Translations under genes and position numbers: made by a program
From: Acidobacteriota bacterium
Lineage (GTDB): Bacteria; Acidobacteriota; Terriglobia; UBA7540
Direction of reading: 5' to 3'
Length of the DNA: 64,000 nt
Assembly: GCA_902812465.1 (NCBI GenBank)
Contig: CADDZE010000007.1
Coordinates: 1-64,000, forward strand
Shown here: piece after piece, positions 2 to 33,857 of the stretch
Numbering within the stretch: the first letter of the stretch is position 1
How the letters are laid out: the number at the start of each line of letters is the position of its first letter
The notes under the pieces: model-generated
Seen by the model: the letters and a program-made list of their open reading frames with translations, nothing else
Told to the model about the DNA's origin: nothing
The model's database searches: none

Positions 2-2875
2 CGACGGGATTTGATCATCGATCCGGTGCTGCTCTACTCGACGTACCTGGGGGGGAGCGGTGGGGACGTGGCGTATGGCCTTGCCGTCGACAGTTCCGGC
101 AATACCTACATCGCTGGGATCACCAACTCGACCGATTTCCCGACCACCTCTGGTGTCAAGCAGACGAAGAGCGGTGGCGCCGGCGACGCCTTTGTGACGA
201 AGCTCAATTCCACTGGCACAGCGCTGGTTTGGTCAACCTATCTGGGCGGCTCGGGAGCGGATAGTGCCGCCAGTGTGGCGATTGATTCCGCGGGCGATGT
301 GTTTGTCACCGGCACGACCAACTCGGCCGACTTTCCTGTTGCCCCCAATTCGGCACAATCGCAAGCCTTTCAAGCCGTCTATGGCGGCCAGGGCGATGCC
401 TTCGTCGCGGAGCTTTCCAGCAACGGTGCTTCTCTGGTGTACTCGTCCTACCTGGGCGGGAGCGGCGCGGACTTCGGCCAGGCCATCGTCGTCGACTCCA
501 CGGGTAACGCTTATGTGACCGGCTCAACGCAGTCCGCGGATTTTCCGATTCCGCCAGGAACGACGCCCTATCAGTCAACCCTGCAGGGCGCATCCGACGC
601 GTTCGTGGCCAAGGTCAATTTCTCCGGCACGGCCCTGGTCTACTCGACTTACCTTGGGGGGTCGCAGGCCGATACAGGCCAGGGCATCAAGGTGGATAGT
701 GCGGGGAACACTTATGTGAGCGGGTACACATTTTCGACGGATTTTCCGACGCTGAACCCGATCTACGGTTCGAACGCTGGCGACGCGGACGCGTTCGTCA
801 CCGAGGTTAACCCGAGTGGCTCCGGTTTGGTTTTCTCCACCTACCTCGGCGGCCAGGGACGCGATCGTGCCTTTGGACTAGCTCTCGACAGCACCGGTAT
901 TTACGTCGCCGGTGACACTCAGTCCGCGGATTTTCCCCTCACACCGGGTGTGTTTCAGAGCACTTACAGCGGCAATGGCGACGCTTTTGTCGCCAAGCTG
1001 AGCCCTTCCGGCACGACCCTGCTTTACTCGACCTTCATCGGAGGCAGCGGCGTCGACCAGGCCAACGGGATTGCAGTTGATTCGTCCGGGAACGCGGCCG
1101 TGGTAGGTTTTACTCAGTCCAGCAACTTTCCCACGGTGAATCCCCTGCAATCCATTTTGGGGCTCACCGGCGGTGGCTCGTGCGGAGCGAACCCTTGCGC
1201 GGACGCCTTTGTCGTCAAGCTCAACGCTTCGGGCAGCCAGGCTGCCTATTCGACCTATCTGGGCGGCAGTGGAGCCGACTTTGGCCAGGCAGTAGCGGTG
1301 GACAGCTCGGGCGATCCTTACGTGGCTGGCAGCACTTCCTCTAACAATTTCCCCGCGGTCGCCGGGGCCTACCAGGGAACTCTTGCCGGGGTGGCCGGCA
1401 ATGCTTTTGTAGCGAAGATTGATCCGGCGGATTCGCCCGCTATCGCCCTCTCTCCGTCCAAACTCAATTTCGGAAACCAGACAATCAACGTGAAGAGTCC
1501 CGCTCTCGCGGTTACTGTCATCGACGCCGGCAGCGCGCCTCTGACTATTACCTCCATTACGCCGCCCAGCAGTAATTTTGCCGAAACGGACAATTGCATT
1601 GGCACAGTAGCGCCGCGGGGCGGCACTTGTACCATCAACGTGACGTTCACCCCAACGTCGACCGGCGCGGTGACTGACCGGTTTTCCATCGCCGACAACG
1701 CGGCCAACAGCCCACAGACCTTCACCGTGACCGGTACAGGAGTGACCCAAGCCACCTCGGTTACGCTGGCACCGACCAGCCTGGTTTTCGGCAATCAGAT
1801 GGTGGGAACGGTCAGCGCGGCACAGATGGTGACCATTACCAACACAGGTTCCGCCACGCTCGACATCACTTCCATCAGTACCAGCGGCGATTTCTCCCAG
1901 ACTAACACTTGCTCAGCTCTCAACAACGTGCTCAATCCTGGCCAGAGTTGCTCAGTGAGCGTGACGTTTGCACCCACGGCCACCGGCAGTCGAACCGGCA
2001 GCCTGACCGTCAGTGACAACGCTACCGGCAGCCCGCAGAGCGTGGCCCTGTCGGGAACCGGACTGGCAGTTTTCTCGCTATCTTCCGGTAGCCCGGCGGT
2101 CTCGACGGTCATCGGTTCAACCTCGGTGAACTTTACGGTCTCCGCTACTGCCGCCAGTGGCTTCAGTGGAAGTATTACGCTGTCGTGCCCTACCGGCCTC
2201 ACGTGCACTTTTAGCCCCAGTTCCATATTTGCCGGGCAGAGCAGCACGCTGACCGTGAGCGGGCTTTCTACTTCGACGCCGAATCCCTATAACTTCACGA
2301 TCAGCGGCACCAGCGGATCGCAAACCGCTACGCTCAATCTGACGATTCTCTTTCAAACCTTTACCCTGTCGGTGACCCCTGCGCTCAACACCATCGTACC
2401 CGGGGCCAGCGCCAACTACACGGTGCTGGTGACACCGGTGAACGGCTTCAAGCAGCAGGTTCAGATGAGCTGCACCAACCTACCAGCCGGGGCCACCTGT
2501 TCCTTCTCGCCCTCTGCGGTCACGCCCAACGGATCTTCCCCATCCACGGTGGGGCTCACCATCACAACTACTCAGGCTCTAGGCTTGGGGCGGCGAGTCG
2601 ACCCCCATCCACCCGGCGGCGTTTGGCTGCTTCTGGGCGGTCTCTGGCTAACGTTGTGCTTCGTCGACCGTCGATTCAAGGGACGGCTGGCGCTTGGCCG
2701 GAGCCTCCTCGCCGCGACGCTCCTGCTGGGGTTGCTTCTTGCGGCCAGCTGCCGGGGAATCAGTCCCCACACCTCGCCTACTCCGACCGGCAACTACATC
2801 ATCACGATCACTGGCACGCTCAGCTCGAATCCCGCTGTCCAAGTGACCACAACGGCGGACTTGTCGGTGACGTAG
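2..2875 (+). CDS. SBBP-repeat, HYDIN-like domain exported protein (5' truncated by window)
   Basis: The reading frame is open to the first bases of the window, so the N-terminus is missing; the TTG at 11 is not a convincing start because family members usually carry a long region before the first SBBP repeat. About seven SBBP-type beta-propeller repeats of 55-70 residues follow (each with a YSTYLGG-like start, a VDSxGNxYVxG centre and a DFP end), up to about residue 475. Two HYDIN/ASPM-like Ig domains follow (about 475-575 and 580-685, each with FGNQ and TGTG signatures), then two further Ig-like segments. Two hydrophobic stretches (about 870-885 and 896-913) interrupt the last Ig-like unit. 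Such proteins are common in Acidobacteriota and are presumed to be surface or secreted; no function is established. The call rests on clear repeat recognition. Confidence 0.85.
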   Translation, partial: RRDLIIDPVLLYSTYLGGSGGDVAYGLAVDSSGNTYIAGITNSTDFPTTSGVKQTKSGGAGDAFVTKLNSTGTALVWSTYLGGSGADSAASVAIDSAGDVFVTGTTNSADFPVAPNSAQSQAFQAVYGGQGDAFVAELSSNGASLVYSSYLGGSGADFGQAIVVDSTGNAYVTGSTQSADFPIPPGTTPYQSTLQGASDAFVAKVNFSGTALVYSTYLGGSQADTGQGIKVDSAGNTYVSGYTFSTDFPTLNPIYGSNAGDADAFVTEVNPSGSGLVFSTYLGGQGRDRAFGLALDSTGIYVAGDTQSADFPLTPGVFQSTYSGNGDAFVAKLSPSGTTLLYSTFIGGSGVDQANGIAVDSSGNAAVVGFTQSSNFPTVNPLQSILGLTGGGSCGANPCADAFVVKLNASGSQAAYSTYLGGSGADFGQAVAVDSSGDPYVAGSTSSNNFPAVAGAYQGTLAGVAGNAFVAKIDPADSPAIALSPSKLNFGNQTINVKSPALAVTVIDAGSAPLTITSITPPSSNFAETDNCIGTVAPRGGTCTINVTFTPTSTGAVTDRFSIADNAANSPQTFTVTGTGVTQATSVTLAPTSLVFGNQMVGTVSAAQMVTITNTGSATLDITSISTSGDFSQTNTCSALNNVLNPGQSCSVSVTFAPTATGSRTGSLTVSDNATGSPQSVALSGTGLAVFSLSSGSPAVSTVIGSTSVNFTVSATAASGFSGSITLSCPTGLTCTFSPSSIFAGQSSTLTVSGLSTSTPNPYNFTISGTSGSQTATLNLTILFQTFTLSVTPALNTIVPGASANYTVLVTPVNGFKQQVQMSCTNLPAGATCSFSPSAVTPNGSSPSTVGLTITTTQALGLGRRVDPHPPGGVWLLLGGLWLTLCFVDRRFKGRLALGRSLLAATLLLGLLLAASCRGISPHTSPTPTGNYIITITGTLSSNPAVQVTTTADLSVT

Positions 2876-3076
2876 GACTGAGGCGAAGGTCGGCCCACGT
2901 GGTGGGCGCAGCCGTCGATTCCTCTCAACCGCCCGGTTTGGCCACTACTCGGCGCTTGCTTGGCTGCTGCGCACTGGCGTACGCGAACTGGAGTAAGCCT
3001 GCCGGGTCAATCGAGCTGGAATTAAGCGTGCCGCTGCGCTATTATTACCAGCATCCTACGGGCGGGGGTGGGCAAC

Positions 3077-4549
3077 ATGAAAGAGTATCCGTTAACGCCG
3101 ATGCAGGATCTGCTGCGAGCGGTCACGCGACGCCATTTCTTTAAGCAGGCGGGGTTCGGAATTGGGGCTGCAGCGCTCTCATCGCTGATTAATCGTTCGG
3201 GCTGGGCGGCCGCCACCCCGGCCATGAATGCTGCCAATCCCCTGGCGCCCAAGCCGCCCATGTTTCCCGCCAAGGCCAAAAGCATCATTTACCTCTTCAT
3301 GGCCGGGGCGCCTTCCCAAGTGGACCTGCTGGACTACAAGCCCAAGCTCCAGCAGTACGACGGGCAGAACATCCCCGAGGAGATGCTGAAGGGAGAGCGC
3401 TTCGCCTTCATCCGGGGGACGCCGAAGTTGCTCGGCTCGCCTTACGAGTTCAAGAAATGGGGAAAGTCTGGCGCCGAAATCTCCGAACTCCTGCCACACC
3501 TGGGCGAAATCGCTGACGACATCGCCATCGTTCGCTCCGTGCATACGACCCAGTTCAACCATGCGCCGGCACAGATTTTCATGAATACCGGCTTTCAGAT
3601 TATCGGCCGGCCGAGTATGGGGTCGTGGTTGACTTACGGGCTGGGAAGCGAGTCGTCGGACTTACCCGGCTTCGTCGTGCTGATCTCGGGCGAGAACCAG
3701 CCTGACGGCGGCAAAGCCTGCTGGGGGAGCGGATTTCTGCCCACCGTGTATCAGGGTGTTGAGTTTCGCTCCAAGGGTGATCCTGTCCTGTTTCTGACCA
3801 ACCCGGAGGGCGTGACGCCGCAGATGCGGCGCGAGTCGCTGGATGCACTCAAAAGCCTCAATGAAATGTGCTTGCAGAGTAATGGCGATCCGGAGATTTT
3901 GACGCGCATCGCCTCCTACGAGATGGCCTACCGCATGCAATCGAGTGTGCCGGAGTTAACCGATATTTCGAAAGAGCCGCCGTCCATCCACCAGATGTAC
4001 GGCACGGAACCGGGCAAGAAGTCCTTCGCGAATAATTGTCTGCTAGCACGGCGGCTGGTGGAGCGCGGGGTGCGCTTCGTCCAGCTGTATCATCGTGGGT
4101 GGGATAACCACGGTACGTCAAGCCACGACGACATCGTCAACCGCCTCCCCAGCCTTTGCCGGGAGACCGACCGGGCCGCCGCCGCGCTGGTGAAGGACTT
4201 AAAACAGCGCGGCCTGCTCGAGACCACACTGGTTGTCTGGGGCGGGGAATTCGGACGCACGCCGATGAACGAGGCACGTAATCAGTCCAAGTTCCTCGGG
4301 CGGGATCATCATCCGCGTGCCTTCTCGATGTGGCTGGCAGGTGGCGGCATCAAGCCGGGTGTGACCATCGGAGCGACCGACGAGCTCGGCTACAATCCTG
4401 TCGAAGACCCCATTGACGTTCATGACCTGCACGCCACCATTCTTCACCTTATGGGAATCGATCACACCAAACTCACCTACCGCTTTCAGGGCCGCGATTT
4501 CCGCCTGACGGACGTTTCGGGAAACGTCATCGAGAAGCTGTTGGCGTAG
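3077..4549 (+). CDS. DUF1501 family exported protein (alkaline-phosphatase-like fold)
   Basis: A 490-aa protein with an N-terminal twin-arginine-like signal (RRHFFKQAG at about residues 18-26, then an Ala-rich stretch), so export by Tat is likely. DUF1501 proteins belong to the alkaline phosphatase/sulfatase-like superfamily. The metal-site-like motifs are visible: [10 protein letters not shown] near 80, [12 protein letters not shown] near 335, GGEFGRTP near 385 and [10 protein letters not shown] near 405. ATG 3077 is chosen over GTG 3068 because a G-rich stretch (GGGGGTGGG) lies just upstream at Shine-Dalgarno distance. The usual DUF1549/DUF1553 partner gene of the planctomycete/acidobacterial pairs is absent here. 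The substrate is unknown. A second DUF1501 gene lies at 24560. Confidence 0.85.
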
Positions 4550-28186: not shown

Positions 28187-28966
28187 TCAGTCAGCATGGA
28201 AGCGGTATCCCGCTTGCTTGATAGCTTTCCGATAGTCGTCGGAGTGCATCTCAACCAGTTTACACATCTCGTACAGGCGCGAAGCGAGCGTAGCCCCGAA
28301 GTGGTTCAGCGTTCGTTCGAGGTCGGGAATAGCTTCGCCGGAGGGCATCACGGCGTTGCCGGCGTCCTTTGGCGGGACTAACGTGGTGGTGATCAAGGTT
28401 ACGCGCTTCTGGTTGTAGCGCGAGTTGATGATATAGGCGAGGGTTTCCTTCACCCAGTCGCTGGGGTTAGCGGCCGCCATCTCGTCGAGCAGGAGTACCT
28501 CCGTGTCCAGCACCGGCTGGAGGACACGCAACTCGGAAGTTTGCGAGACGGGGTTGTAGCTGTCCTGGATCTCCTTCAGCAGGTCATGGAAGTCATAAAA
28601 GAGGCACGGCACCCCTTTGCGCAGCATCAGCTCGCGCAGCACCGCTACGGCCAAGTGGGTCTTGCCCACGCCGGTCGGGCCGACAAATAGCAGCCCGAAC
28701 TCCGTAGGATACTCTTCGACGAACTTCTCAGCTACCCGGCGTGCCCACCAGAGTGACCTATTTTCCTGGCCAGATTGGCGCGTTTTGCGGACGTCGAAGT
28801 TCTCAAGGGCACAGTGCTCGTAGCGGCGTGGAATGCGGCCCTGCTCGAGGAGTTGCTGGATGCGCTTCGTAGCGCTACACTCGCACCGTACCAGCCGGCG
28901 GATCCCGTTCGCCTCCACCGGGCGCCATCCCGTACCATCACACTTCGAGCAATCCCTTCTGGCCAC
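28187..28966 (-). CDS. DnaC/IstB-like AAA+ ATPase with N-terminal Cys cluster
   Basis: About 259 aa from GTG 28966; the frame is open further upstream but that part is not protein-like. The N-terminus has C6, C9, C28 and C30 (CSKCDGTGW and RCECS), a likely metal site. Walker A GPTGVGKTH lies at about 96-104, Walker B VLLLDEMA near 157-164 and a sensor-1-like LITTTL near 190. DnaC/DnaI/IstB ATPases load the replicative helicase or act with transposases. No IS transposase gene is adjacent, so a helicase-loader-type role is more likely. A similar Cys cluster occurs in DnaI-like loaders. Confidence 0.85.
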   Translation of the reverse strand: MARRDCSKCDGTGWRPVEANGIRRLVRCECSATKRIQQLLEQGRIPRRYEHCALENFDVRKTRQSGQENRSLWWARRVAEKFVEEYPTEFGLLFVGPTGVGKTHLAVAVLRELMLRKGVPCLFYDFHDLLKEIQDSYNPVSQTSELRVLQPVLDTEVLLLDEMAAANPSDWVKETLAYIINSRYNQKRVTLITTTLVPPKDAGNAVMPSGEAIPDLERTLNHFGATLASRLYEMCKLVEMHSDDYRKAIKQAGYRFHAD

Positions 28967-29099
28967 GTTGCCGATTCTAGCAGGTTGACCAAGCCAGTGC
29001 GGAAGGCAACTCCGCAGTACCAAGCTTCTGGTGAGGCCCGTTCCCAGCGCGTCAAGGCGGCCGGGAGTGGGGAGCGAGGGCAGCCGTAGCTTCTTTTGG

Positions 29100-29528
29100 T
29101 CAAGCTGGGCGCGGCGGCTTGGGCCGTGGGCTCTCCACCCGGCGCGGGGCGGCACGAACCAGCTGGGGCGGTCCGACCCGCACCATCGCGTTCACCGGTG
29201 ATCGGCTGGCCCGGCCCAACATCTCCTGGCGGACGAACTCCACGAAGGCGCGCATCTGCTGTTCCATTTGCTCTAGCCGCTCCCGCATGTTCAGGATGAT
29301 CTCGGTCCCGGCCAGGTTCACGCCCAGGTCGCGCGTGAGGTGCAGGATGGTCTCGAGCCGTTCGAGATCTTTCTCCGTATAGAGGCGGGTATTGCCTTCG
29401 CTGCGCGACGGTGTCAGTAAACCCTCGCGCTCGTACATGCGCAGTGTCTGAGGATGGAGACCATACTTCTCTGCCACCGCGCTGATCATGTAGCCCACAG
29501 GACGTCGTTTCGGGTTTGCTCGGGCCAT
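29100..29528 (-). CDS. hspR: HspR, MerR-family heat-shock repressor
   Basis: A 142-aa protein. The MerR-type winged HTH (about 13-80) has ISAVAEKYGLHPQTLRMYER, then LLTPSRSEGNTRLYTEKDLE, and a coiled segment ILNMRERLEQMEQQMRAFVE. The C-terminal tail is Pro/Arg-rich. HspR represses dnaK operons by binding HAIR inverted repeats and uses DnaK as co-repressor. Its position as last gene after dnaK and dnaJ is the classical arrangement, and a HAIR-like site overlaps the dnaK promoter at 33272-33292, so autoregulation is likely. Confidence 0.93.
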   Translation of the reverse strand: MARANPKRRPVGYMISAVAEKYGLHPQTLRMYEREGLLTPSRSEGNTRLYTEKDLERLETILHLTRDLGVNLAGTEIILNMRERLEQMEQQMRAFVEFVRQEMLGRASRSPVNAMVRVGPPQLVRAAPRRVESPRPKPPRPA

Positions 29529-29615: not shown

Positions 29616-30797
29616 CTAATGTAAGCTGCCTACTTCCTTTAGATCCTTACGGGGATCCTCCGGGTTCAGCCTCGCTAGTTCGCGCAAGAGCTCCTTCGTG
29701 CGCTCGTCTGCTACGCGCGGCACCACCACCTGGATCTCCACAAACTGGTCACCGCGCGCGTCGCCCCGCAGCGACGGTGCACCCCGGCCGCGCAGGCGCA
29801 GCTTCTGCCCGCTCTGCGTACCAGGAGGAATGCGGATAGTGCTCAGCCCGTCCAGCGTTGGAACCTCTACTTTCGCTCCCAATGCTGCTTCGGTGACGGT
29901 AACCGGCAGCTTAACGTAGATGTTATCGCCTTTGCGTTCGAAGAAGGGATGCGGTTCCACGTCGGTGATGATCACCAAGTCGCCCGGCGGACCGCCGTTC
30001 ACGCCCGCGTTCCCTTTGCCGGGCACACGCACCCGCGAGCCGGTGTCCACCCCTGGAGGGATCCGGACTTCGAGCGTCTCCGGCTTGCGGGTGTAGCCGG
30101 TGCCATTGCAAGACGGGCATGGGCGGCGGCGCCTTCCGCTGCCGCCACATTCCGGACAGGGCCCGGAGAAGCGCATGACGCCCGCTTGGCGGCTGATCTT
30201 GCCCGTCCCACCGCAGGCCGTGCACACCACGGAGGCACCGCTGGCCGTTCCCGTGCCGTGGCACGTGGGGCAAGCTTCGTTGCGTGCGATCGTGAGCCTT
30301 ACCTTGGTGCCGCGCATCGCGTCCCAGAAGCCTAAATGCATGCGGTGCTCGATGTCCGAGCCGCGCAGCGGACCCTCGGGCTCTTCCTCCGACTCTCCGA
30401 CGCGCGAAAAGAAGGAGGAGAAAAGATCGCGGAAGGAGGAGGCGAATCCACTCCGGCGGTCGGCCGGCTCCTCACCCATGTTCATGAAGTCGAAGCCGGA
30501 GAAGTCGAAGCCGCCCGCTGTGCCGGCGCCGGGCGGCGGCCCCGGCTGATAGCCTGGTGGAATGTTGTCAGCATAGAAGCCGTACTGGTCGTAGATCTGC
30601 CGCTTCTTTTCATCGCTCAGGACTTCGTAGGCTTCGGAGATCTCCTTGAACTTCTCCTCGGCTGCCTTGTTACCCGGGTTCAGATCGGGATGGTACTTCC
30701 GGGCCAGATGACGATAGGCCTTGCGGATCTCCTCGGGCGTGGCCTTCCGGTCCACTCCGAGGATAGCGTAGTAATCTTTTTGGGTTCCAACAGGCAT
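29616..30797 (-). CDS. dnaJ: Chaperone DnaJ
   Basis: A 393-aa type I J protein. The J domain (about 6-75) has the HPD motif in [14 protein letters not shown]-like linker with [19 protein letters not shown] follows. Four CxxCxGxG-type zinc motifs lie at about 180-245 ([32 protein letters not shown]). The C-terminal substrate-binding domain has [17 protein letters not shown] and [13 protein letters not shown]. It stimulates DnaK ATPase and delivers clients. It lies between the small Cys/His gene and hspR in the dnaK operon; a 149-base structured gap separates it from the former. Confidence 0.97.
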
Positions 30798-30946: not shown

Positions 30947-31165
30947 TCAGTTTTTCGTGAACCTAGAAATAGAGCTCAAATGATCCGGACAATGCGAGGC
31001 CATCCAAGCCTCGATCTGGCGGCGAATTTCCAACGCTAGCGCGGATTGCTGGAGCGATGGCGTGTGGTCCAGCTCAACCTCCACAAACTGCCTCCAGTGG
31101 CACTGGGGGCACTCGACGCCGACATGTGCTCGATGTTCAACCATACTCACACTTTCCCTTTTCAT
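30947..31165 (-). CDS. Small Cys/His protein in the dnaK operon, unknown function
   Basis: A 72-aa protein from ATG 31165, or 65 aa from ATG 31144, which has a GGGA-type site nearby. It has C19 and C22 (VECPQCHWRQF) and a C-terminal HCPDH (about 58-62), which could together bind zinc. The middle is a predicted helix (SALALEIRRQIEAWMASH). I do not recognise the family. Its position between dnaK and dnaJ suggests a role linked to the chaperone system or its control. Confidence 0.6.
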   Translation of the reverse strand: MKRESVSMVEHRAHVGVECPQCHWRQFVEVELDHTPSLQQSALALEIRRQIEAWMASHCPDHLSSISRFTKN

Positions 31166-31243
31166 CCGTCTAGTGCTAGCGAAGCCCAACGCAACTTCAT
31201 TGGGCCAAGATGGGCTCACGCTGCTGCGTCGTCCGATGTCGCG

Positions 31244-33184
31244 CTAGTGCTTTTTCTTTTCATCTGAGTCGATCACCTCGGCGTCGATCACCTCGCCTTC
31301 CGGCCGCCCCTTGCCATCGCTGGCTGCCGGACCGCTGCTGGCTGCGGAAGCTCCCGAGCCTCCCGCCGTGCCCGCGGCTTGCCCCGCTTGCCGGTACATG
31401 GCCTCGGCAAGCTTGTGAGAGGCCTGCGTGAGCCGGTCTACTGCCGCCGTAATGGCTGATGTGTCGCTACCCTGAATAGCTTTCTTGGCCTCCTCGATGG
31501 CAGATTCAATGTTGCGGGCATCCGACTCGGAAATCTTGTCGCGATGCTCCTTCAACATCTTCTCCGTCGAGTAGACCATGGCATCCGCCCGGTTTTTAAG
31601 CTCGATCTCCTCCTTTCGCCGACGGTCTTCTTCGGCGTGCAGCTCGGCTTCCCTCTTCATGCGTTCCACTTCTTCCTTGCTGAGGCCACTTGAAGAGGTA
31701 ATGGTGATCTTCTGCTCTTGTCCGGTGGCGCGGTCTTTCGCCGATACGCTGAGGATACCGTTGGCGTCAATATCGAATGTCACCTCGATCTGGGGAACGC
31801 CGCGCGGAGCGGGCGGGATACCAACCAGATGAAACTTGCCTAGAGTACGGTTGTCGCGCGCCAGGGGCCGCTCGCCCTGGAGGACGTGGATCTCGACGGA
31901 GGTCTGGTTGTCCGCGGCGGTTGAGAAGACCTCCGTCTTGCGCGTCGGAATGGTAGTGTTGCGCGGAATGAGCGGTGTCATAACCCCACCCAAGGTCTCC
32001 ACGCCGAGCGTCAATGGGGTCACGTCGAGGAGCAACAGGTCCTTCACCTCCCCGGCCAGGACGCCCGCCTGGACGGCTGCTCCAACGGCTACGACTTCGT
32101 CCGGATTCACACCCTTGTGTGGCTCCTTGCCGTGGAAGAGGTTCTTGACGATCTGCTGGATGCGCGGAATCCGCGTCGACCCGCCCACGAGCACCACTTC
32201 GTCAATCTGGTCGGGAGTCAGGCCGGCATCTTCGAGCGCCTGCTTAACCGGACCCACCGAGCGCTGGAAGATGTCCTCGCACATCTGCTCGAAGCGCGCA
32301 CGCGTGAGCTTCATGTTGAGGTGCTTTGGGCCGGAGGCATCGGCCGTGATGAAGGGAAGGTTGATCTCCGTTTCGAGTAGCGTGGAAAGCTCCATCTTGG
32401 CCTTCTCAGCTGCCTCCTTAAGCCGCTGCAAGGCCATCCGATCTTTCGAGAGGTCGATGCCCTGATCACGCCGGAACTCTTCTATGATCCAGTCCATGAT
32501 GCGCTTGTCGATGTCATCGCCCCCTAGGTGGGTGTCGCCGTTCGTGGATTTCACCTCCACGACGCCCTCGCCCACCTCGAGGATCGAGATGTCAAAGGTG
32601 CCCCCGCCGAAGTCATACACCGCAATGGTCTCGTCCTTTTTCTTGTCCAAGCCATAGGCCAGCGCTGCCGCCGTGGGCTCGTTCACAATGCGTAGGACTT
32701 CCAGACCAGCGATCTTGCCAGCGTCCTTGGTGGCTTGGCGCTGGCTGTCGTTGAAGTACGCCGGCACCGTGATTACCGCTTGCGTCACCTTTTCGCCCAG
32801 GTACTGCTCGGCAGCGTCCCGCATCTTTTGCAGGATCATGGCGGAAATCTCCTGGGGCGTGTACTCCTTCCCCAGCGCCACAACCCTAACTCCGCCGTCG
32901 GGCGCTTCCACCACCTTGTAAGGCACCGTCTTAATCTCGTTTTGCACCTCGCTGAAGCGACGGCCCATGAAGCGCTTGATCGAGTAAATGGTGTTCTCCG
33001 GGTTGGTGATGGCCTGCCGTTTGGCCGCCTGCCCGACTAGCCGCTCGCCTGACTTCGTGAATGCCACTACGGACGGAGTCGTACGTGCTCCCTCCGGGTT
33101 GGGAATAACGGTTGGCTCGCCCCCTTCCATGACGGCTACCACCGAGTTGGTCGTTCCCAGGTCGATTCCGATGATTTTGCCCAT
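31244..33184 (-). CDS. dnaK: Chaperone DnaK (Hsp70)
   Basis: A 646-aa full-length Hsp70. The ATPase domain begins [18 protein letters not shown], with [17 protein letters not shown] near 140, [13 protein letters not shown] near 195 and [13 protein letters not shown] near 335. The substrate-binding domain has [14 protein letters not shown] near 390, and the C-terminus ends in [16 protein letters not shown] with a Gly/Ala-rich linker before it. It folds and protects proteins with DnaJ and a nucleotide exchange factor; grpE is not in this operon or elsewhere in the window. Transcription is likely from the promoter at 33263-33291, controlled by HspR. Confidence 0.98.
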
Positions 33185-33494
33185 GACCGCTCTCCAAAAG
33201 TTTATTCTATAAGTCTGTTCTACCCGCCCACGTAAGATGCTACCTTAGGTTAGTCGGTTGCTATAATGAACCATGAGTGTGAGCCTGTCAAGTATCTAAT
33301 GCCTAGTTAAAAGCAAATCCAGCTAATTTGCCGGATACGTGGGTAACATTAAGAGCTGAGAAGTGGACGGCTGTGGGATAAGGACAGACACGGCGCGGTG
33401 AGCTTTAGAACATGCCATCGGCGCCGTGGCTGCTTTCATTAATCCGGCAGAGTAGCTGTCGTTGCTAAAACATGCCTAACGAGCTGCCGGAAGC
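33185..33494. other. Intergenic region with dnaK control elements
   Basis: About 310 bases between dnaK and the bactofilin gene, both on the minus strand. The dnaK promoter and HAIR-like operator occupy its dnaK-proximal third. The remainder, downstream of the bactofilin gene, shows no hairpin with a T tract that I could identify. Confidence 0.4.
33263..33292 (-). promoter_or_regulatory. dnaK promoter overlapped by HAIR-like HspR operator
   Basis: On the minus strand TTGACA (33286-33291) is followed after 17 bases by CATTAT (33263-33268), a good sigma-70 pair. The 21 bases at 33272-33292 read, on the minus strand, CTTGACA, seven bases, ACTCATG; this matches 11 of 14 defined positions of the HAIR consensus CTTGAGT-N7-ACTCAAG. 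The operator covers the -35, which explains repression by HspR. Confidence 0.7.
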
Positions 33495-33857
33495 TCACGC
33501 CCGTGGCTGGTCGAAAGTGCGAACTTCTCCTTCAAAGTCAGCTTCAGTTTCAACTACAATAATAGGTGTATAGGCGTTCCCTTTCAGTGACGCCCCACGG
33601 TGGATGACAAGCAATTCGCTCGCTTGAACGTCGCCACACACAGTACCGAATAAGTCAACCTTCCTGGCATGGATCTCACAGTGGCAGACCGAGCTTTGAC
33701 CAACCTCCACCTCACCCCAGGAATGGATGCACCCATTCACCGTGCCGTTGATCCGGATCACCCCTGCAGGAGCCTCCAGTTCCCCCGTTATAATAACGTC
33801 TCTCTCAACCAATGCTACGATGGATTCTCGTGGGTGTTCTTTGGCTGGATTACTCAT
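33495..33857 (-). CDS. Bactofilin (polymer-forming cytoskeletal protein)
   Basis: A 120-aa protein of the bactofilin family. Short beta-helix turns are visible: DVIITGELEAPAGVIRINGT, CHCEIHARKVDLFGTVCGDV and ELLVIHRGASLKGNAYTPII. The N-terminal tail is short and polar and the C-terminal tail is only a few residues. Bactofilins self-assemble into filaments without nucleotides. It is the third gene after parA and parB, 56 bases downstream of parB; in Myxococcus, bactofilins position the ParABS machinery, so a similar link is plausible here. Confidence 0.9.
   Translation of the reverse strand: MSNPAKEHPRESIVALVERDVIITGELEAPAGVIRINGTVNGCIHSWGEVEVGQSSVCHCEIHARKVDLFGTVCGDVQASELLVIHRGASLKGNAYTPIIVVETEADFEGEVRTFDQPRA

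Follow-up and report, generated by a model that had tools for sequence, protein, structure and literature searches.

The window analysed here, a stretch of 64,000 nucleotides from an Acidobacteriota genome, contains dnaK, dnaJ and an hspR-type gene in one gene run, together with a small gene for a Cys/His protein. All four lie on the minus strand, in the order dnaK, small Cys/His open reading frame (ORF), dnaJ and HspR-type gene. The dnaK gene (31244..33184, minus strand) encodes a protein of 646 aa, and no other Hsp70 match was found in the genome at E 1e-20; dnaJ (29616..30797, minus strand) encodes 393 aa. The gene at 29100..29528 (minus strand) codes for an HspR-type MerR-family repressor; the name hspR is likely rather than formal, because its score against NF047375 (102.8 bits) falls just under the cut-off of 105. 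The small Cys/His gene (30947..31144, minus strand) encodes 65 aa and ends in a TGA at 30947-30949. Its ATG at 31144 follows the dnaK stop after 99 nt, and 149 nt separate its own stop from dnaJ. Between dnaK and dnaJ, a consensus scan of the window detected neither promoters nor terminators, nor anything like them, on the minus strand, and it placed a further promoter-like site inside dnaK (32511-32484). The run is flanked on the same strand by a gene for an IstB/DnaC-like AAA ATPase (PF01695, E 2e-15; 28187-28972), just downstream of the HspR-type gene, and by a bactofilin gene (PF04519, E 1.7e-19; 33495-33857) upstream of dnaK.

Upstream of dnaK, a promoter-like element, TTGACA-17-CATTAT, is overlapped by an imperfect, HAIR-like operator, CTTGACAGGCTCACACTCATG (33272-33292, 3 mismatches), the two together spanning 33263..33292 on the minus strand. 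The operator scan used what we take to be the HAIR consensus. Within the window alone it gave 2 matches against a chance mean of 1.6; a single match is thus not unusual, and only recurrence upstream of dnaK counts. Such recurrence was examined in the 250 bp upstream of dnaK in 16 of 21 sequences (L033, L044, L045, L048 and L050 were dropped, as the dnaK start is missing). Matches with at most 3 mismatches occur in 7/16 regions (300 shuffles: mean 0.18, maximum 3) and with at most 4 in 12/16 (shuffles: mean 1.1, maximum 4), the other 4/16 having none at that level. In the stretch from -145 to -60, which was picked after looking, the counts are 6/16 (shuffle maximum 1) and 10/16 (maximum 3), respectively. 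The best match lies off the usual place in L037 (-201), L039 (-141) and L042 (-205). These sequence statistics point to a HAIR-like operator at the dnaK promoter. No CIRCE operator, as defined by the pattern presumed for it, is found in the window.

The original prediction placed a 72-aa Cys/His frame at 30947-31165, between dnaK and dnaJ, and this frame is indeed present on the minus strand; frame 1 of the plus strand contains a stop in the same interval. Translation most likely begins at the ATG at 31144, giving a 65-aa protein, MVEHRAHVGVECPQCHWRQF...SHCPDHLSSISRFTKN. This start is preferred because AAGGGA precedes it by 10 nt and because conservation in the family begins at about this point. 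The other in-frame starts (31145..31219, minus strand), an ATG at 31165 for 72 aa and a GTG at 31219 for 90 aa, show no visible conservation in relatives. The 65-aa protein has no match among Pfam and NCBIfam profiles, and nothing significant was obtained for it from profile libraries and the PDB. A dnaK-dnaJ Cys/His protein of 65 aa was likewise not described in the titles and abstracts searched, a literature from which subscription papers were mostly absent.

Conservation was assessed in an alignment of 29 rows, comprising the window protein and 28 relatives, with the truncated L030 excluded. The first putative zinc ligand pair is CPQC (C12, C15; 31100..31111, minus strand), in which both Cys and the Pro are present in 29/29 sequences. 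The second is CPDH (C52, H55; 30980..30991, minus strand), with Cys in 28/29 and both Pro and His in 29/29. The four putative ligands, CxxC...CxxH, are therefore conserved in 29, 29, 28 and 29 of the 29 sequences, and the invariant residues are C12, P13, C15, W47, P53, H55 and N65. The protein had been described as having an HCxxH-like end; C52-P-D-H55 is conserved as CxxH, but position 51, His in the window, is Arg in 20/29 sequences, which leaves CxxH rather than HCxxH as the conserved pair. The C-terminal tail, TKN in the window (30950..30958, minus strand), is mostly SKN (17/29) or SRN (5/29) in the family, with the final Asn in 29/29. In one homologue (L020:1501-1692), the third conserved Cys, C52, is replaced by Phe (RFPDH), which reflects either genuine loss of the residue or an error in the sequence. 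Third codon positions are the most divergent in the gene alignment. The dN/dS ratio is below 1 in 406/406 pairs (Nei-Gojobori, 29 sequences), which indicates purifying selection; its median of 0.27, among 265 pairs with dS under 3, is only rough because dS is mostly high. Judged by this conservation of sequence, the small gene between dnaK and dnaJ is genuine and represents a conserved, previously unclassified family.

The gene was found in 30 of the 39 genomes of the GTDB family to which the window genome belongs (its own included). It lies directly downstream of dnaK in 30/30 loci and upstream of dnaJ in 27/30; in the remaining 3/30, the assembled sequence runs out between 0 and about 920 bp beyond the ORF. 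In the 9 family genomes that yielded no match, a family-type dnaK-dnaJ interval was never assembled: 6 lack any dnaK match, and in 3 the family-type dnaK is broken at residue 431, 503 or 555, each time no more than 3 bases from where the contig stops. Where such a genome has a matching dnaJ, the contig ends inside it (G021) or shortly upstream of it (145 bp in G032 and 293 bp in G005). The absence of the gene from these 9 genomes is explained by assembly. One genome, G006, carries a full dnaK-dnaJ pair without the small ORF (contig C142, locus L098), and this pair groups with another family. Among the DnaKs compared, its own is nearest to L146, which belongs to another family (79% over 380 residues). 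A separate, 90%-identical family-type dnaK is present in G006 as well, for which reasons the pair is probably bin contamination.

When 40 genomes of the order were searched with a profile, the same 30 were returned, plus one match in G023 that was read as chance. In a genome contig collection, a single-sequence scan found no match for the small protein, while an alignment-based scan with 61 pattern matches (one pattern) upheld 20 of these as loci and added no new lineages; the confirmed loci carry the labels Acidobacteria or Terriglobia bacterium, and 18 are MAGs and three are labelled 'gp13'. Each of the 30 genomes has only one strong match, the copy beside dnaK. Two weak second matches were also seen; that in G010 was read and judged to be chance, and that in G015 contains a stop.

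Beyond the family, the picture is different. The original prediction looked to other dnaK operons for conservation of the frame and its Cys/His residues; this is borne out within the GTDB family and fails in the other Acidobacteriota sampled, the gene being present in 0/20 dnaK-dnaJ intervals of other Terriglobia families and absent from one sister-family genome. These 20 intervals were chosen among many matches in a class listing and come from 11 families; no small Cys/His homologue was detected in them at a tblastn E of 0.01. In 13 of them the gap measures 15-139 bp and in 7 it measures 457-1517 bp. The sister-family genome, G434, is the only one in the order (75% complete); its dnaK and dnaJ lie 67 bp apart and an hspR-type gene is present, with no ORF between. 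A phylum search matched 9/396 genomes, with the window genome alone giving a strong match, and a class search at E 0.001 matched 32/399, namely the 30 family genomes, G514 (2.4e-4) and G287 (6e-4); both searches scored the best 15 or fewer candidates per genome, and weak relatives could escape them. Among the weak matches read in detail, L053 (in G287) and those in G514, G023 and G010 lack the full ligand motif, those of family f29 (L052, L055, L056 and L058) share only the CPxC half, and that in L054 covers 20 residues in a frame running opposite a putative citrate synthase. In the collections searched, no convincing relative was found outside the GTDB family, and a general Acidobacteriota feature is rejected on the samples taken (the phylum and class searches, the 20 intervals and G434). 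A mobile origin was rejected as well, since viral contigs, plasmids and phages yielded no relative. The small gene thus looks like one gained in the ancestor of a single GTDB family and then kept.

The dnaK-dnaJ interval itself seems to be insertion-prone. Within the family, the spacing between the ORF and dnaJ ranges from an overlap of stop and start (TGATG, L047) or distances of 7 and 9 bp (L033 and L038) to gaps of more than 370 bp in 6/21 relatives and more than 600 bp in 5/21. Co-transcription with dnaJ is not certain in those relatives, because the gaps are long and often contain opposite-strand genes. A pair of small opposite-strand genes occupies the gap in L043 (5228-5821, minus strand), L036, L040, L049 and L023, and the partner alone is found in L050; in L043 one gene matches ParE_toxin (E 1.1e-9) and its partner has no Pfam match, the pairs of the other genomes being alike by eye. 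In L023 the first 28 dnaJ codons occur twice (1837-1920 and 2639-3190), flanking the inserted pair, as though the beginning of dnaJ had been copied or picked up by the insertion. The gap of L045 contains a gene with a nucleotidyltransferase domain (1759-2082; NTP_transf_2, E 4.3e-19). Among the 7 long intervals of other families, two hold an Hsp20 gene (L143:2137-2589, assigned by Pfam, and L142, by resemblance; Terriglobia family f94) and three an ORF of 126-127 aa, while one contains an Fpg-type glycosylase gene and one other small frames. The three ORFs encode an unclassified protein of about 127 aa (GIKRAGPPQAVQKLRE...) in Terriglobia family f91 (L130:2178-2561, also L131 and L132), of which the L130 copy has no Pfam match.

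In other bacteria, the position between dnaK and dnaJ is often occupied by grpE. The small protein is too short to be GrpE, as had been noted from its length, with 65 aa against a model of 165 positions, and no GrpE profile matches it. A GrpE above the Pfam cut-off is encoded elsewhere in the genome, in an hrcA-grpE-dnaJ cluster on another contig. Because grpE exists there, beside hrcA and a second dnaJ, the small gene is no stand-in for a missing grpE, and GrpE replacement was rejected. With this cluster and a single Hsp70 match in the genome, the DnaK of the window presumably has as its partners two DnaJs and the GrpE of that other contig.

Structure prediction for the window protein with AlphaFold2 was weak (pLDDT 59.6). 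For the homologue L035, predicted from the same 21 sequences, the best model reached a pLDDT of 73.0 and a pTM of 0.51, the five models ranging from 57.6 to 73.0. In this model, strands 5-12 and 19-26 are joined by the CPxC knuckle, a helix follows at 34-50, and CPDH opens a second helix, a plausible single-zinc arrangement. Foldseek found no significant match to solved structures. The HPV E7 CR3 zinc domain was among the best rows for L035 (E 1.4-2.2, not significant; 6iwd, TMt 0.54 and Z 3.5; 2b9d, TMt 0.46 and Z 3.6), and VIA placed E. coli YoaG first (Z 4.3), followed by E7 CR3 (Z 3.1-3.6). With Z under 8, these rows may reflect only a common arrangement, and the likeness to E7 CR3 is a fold resemblance of a pLDDT 73 model that implies no relation.

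The small protein may tentatively be regarded as a lineage-specific zinc protein of the HspR-controlled DnaK system, acting as a clade-specific cofactor of DnaK and DnaJ, a reading to which we give slightly less than an even chance. It is favoured because the tie to dnaK is strict, which is the strongest argument for it. Also in its favour are the conserved ligand pattern and W47, the low dN/dS, the short or overlapping ORF-dnaJ junctions of L047, L033 and L038, the recurring operator, the single Hsp70 match, the hairpin and two helices predicted for L035, the net charge and the Hsp20 gene in this interval in another Terriglobia family. Points against it are the poor window model, the spread of the L035 models, the lack of a significant structural match, the Phe of L020, the long ORF-dnaJ gaps of many relatives and the promoter-like site inside dnaK. 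One zinc would be held by C12, C15, C52 and H55, pinning the beta-hairpin, whose turn carries the CPxC knuckle, to the helix. Produced in step with DnaK and DnaJ, the protein could bind either of them and adjust the chaperone cycle, for example by stabilising nucleotide-free DnaK or by helping client handover. In bacteria, DnaK, DnaJ and GrpE are usually taken to make up a complete machine. That the small protein stands beside dnaK in every assembled family case, downstream of an HspR-type promoter, suggests that this lineage has added a component to it.

Adjacency to dnaK is nevertheless guilt by association, as genes of the ParE type, for a nucleotidyltransferase and for a glycosylase have entered the interval in other genomes. 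It is conceivable, though on the unlikely side, that the protein is a housekeeping zinc protein from outside the DnaK system, associated for instance with the ribosome or polymerase, and is heat-inducible merely since landing in the ancestor's operon. Small zinc proteins with CPxC-type motifs and unrelated functions are common, and the interval has repeatedly gained genes (Hsp20, the 127-aa ORF, ParE-type pairs, the nucleotidyltransferase and the DNA glycosylase). However, the only strong copy adjoins dnaK in 30 genomes and no loss is seen where the interval is assembled, which suggests a functional tie to dnaK.

Somewhat more doubtful is a role as regulator of the operon, in which the small protein would modulate HspR or the DnaK-HspR co-repressor complex, or would sense zinc or thiol oxidation and so de-repress the operon. 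The small gene shares one run with the hspR-type gene, the HAIR-like operator recurs, and the conserved Cys could be redox-active; HspR with DnaK as co-repressor is known from actinobacteria, according to a review (PMC8223512). Against this, the sister-family genome G434 has an hspR-type gene after dnaK-dnaJ and manages without the small protein, which in the family is near neutral to acidic and matches no DNA-binding domain. Its mean net charge of -1.3 (range -4 to +2) does not favour nucleic-acid binding. That the frame is spurious or non-coding is so improbable that it can be set aside, for although it is short and matches no Pfam or NCBIfam profile, its 29 aligned sequences retain invariant residues and a dN/dS below 1 in every pair.

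Among known systems, the locus can be compared with the actinobacterial HspR-type dnaK operon. In actinobacteria, HspR is described as binding HAIR with DnaK as co-repressor, and the HspR-controlled gene set of mycobacteria comprises dnaK, dnaJ, grpE and hspR (PMC8223512). The window shares with this operon dnaK, dnaJ, an hspR-type gene whose score is just under the cut-off, and a HAIR-like operator at the dnaK promoter; it differs in that its run has no grpE and an extra Cys/His protein instead. The small protein would resemble GrpE in belonging to an HspR-controlled set, but is shorter and lacks a GrpE match.

A further comparison concerns Hep1/Zim17/Tim15 (zf-DNL), the escort of mitochondrial Hsp70. 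Hep1, a zinc protein, prevents the aggregation of mitochondrial Hsp70, a role as a 'fractured' J-protein has been proposed for Zim17, and zf-DNL is characterised by two CXXC motifs 21 residues apart (PMC4890766). The window protein has instead one CxxC and one CxxH, 36 residues apart, with a predicted helix between them. The Pfam zf-DNL profile touched 1/29 members (E 0.22, not the window protein) and gave no match above the cut-off, and the match to Tim15 (2e2z) was local and non-significant (E 1.1), spanning 17 positions of the profile near CPxCxxR. Since the defining zf-DNL features are lacking, Hep1/Zim17 is an analogy and not a case of membership; the likeness would be that of a small zinc protein serving an Hsp70, in way of working only. 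By this analogy, an escort of the Hep1/Zim17 kind is the most attractive specific version of the cofactor reading: a zinc-binding escort or cofactor for bacterial DnaK would have evolved in one Acidobacteriota family, in a grpE-less, HspR-controlled dnaK operon, and converged functionally with Hep1/Zim17. In this specific form the proposal is speculative and probably not correct. Should the protein bind DnaK, it would provide a bacterial parallel to the mitochondrial Hsp70 escorts and a simple system for studying why some Hsp70s need a zinc partner.
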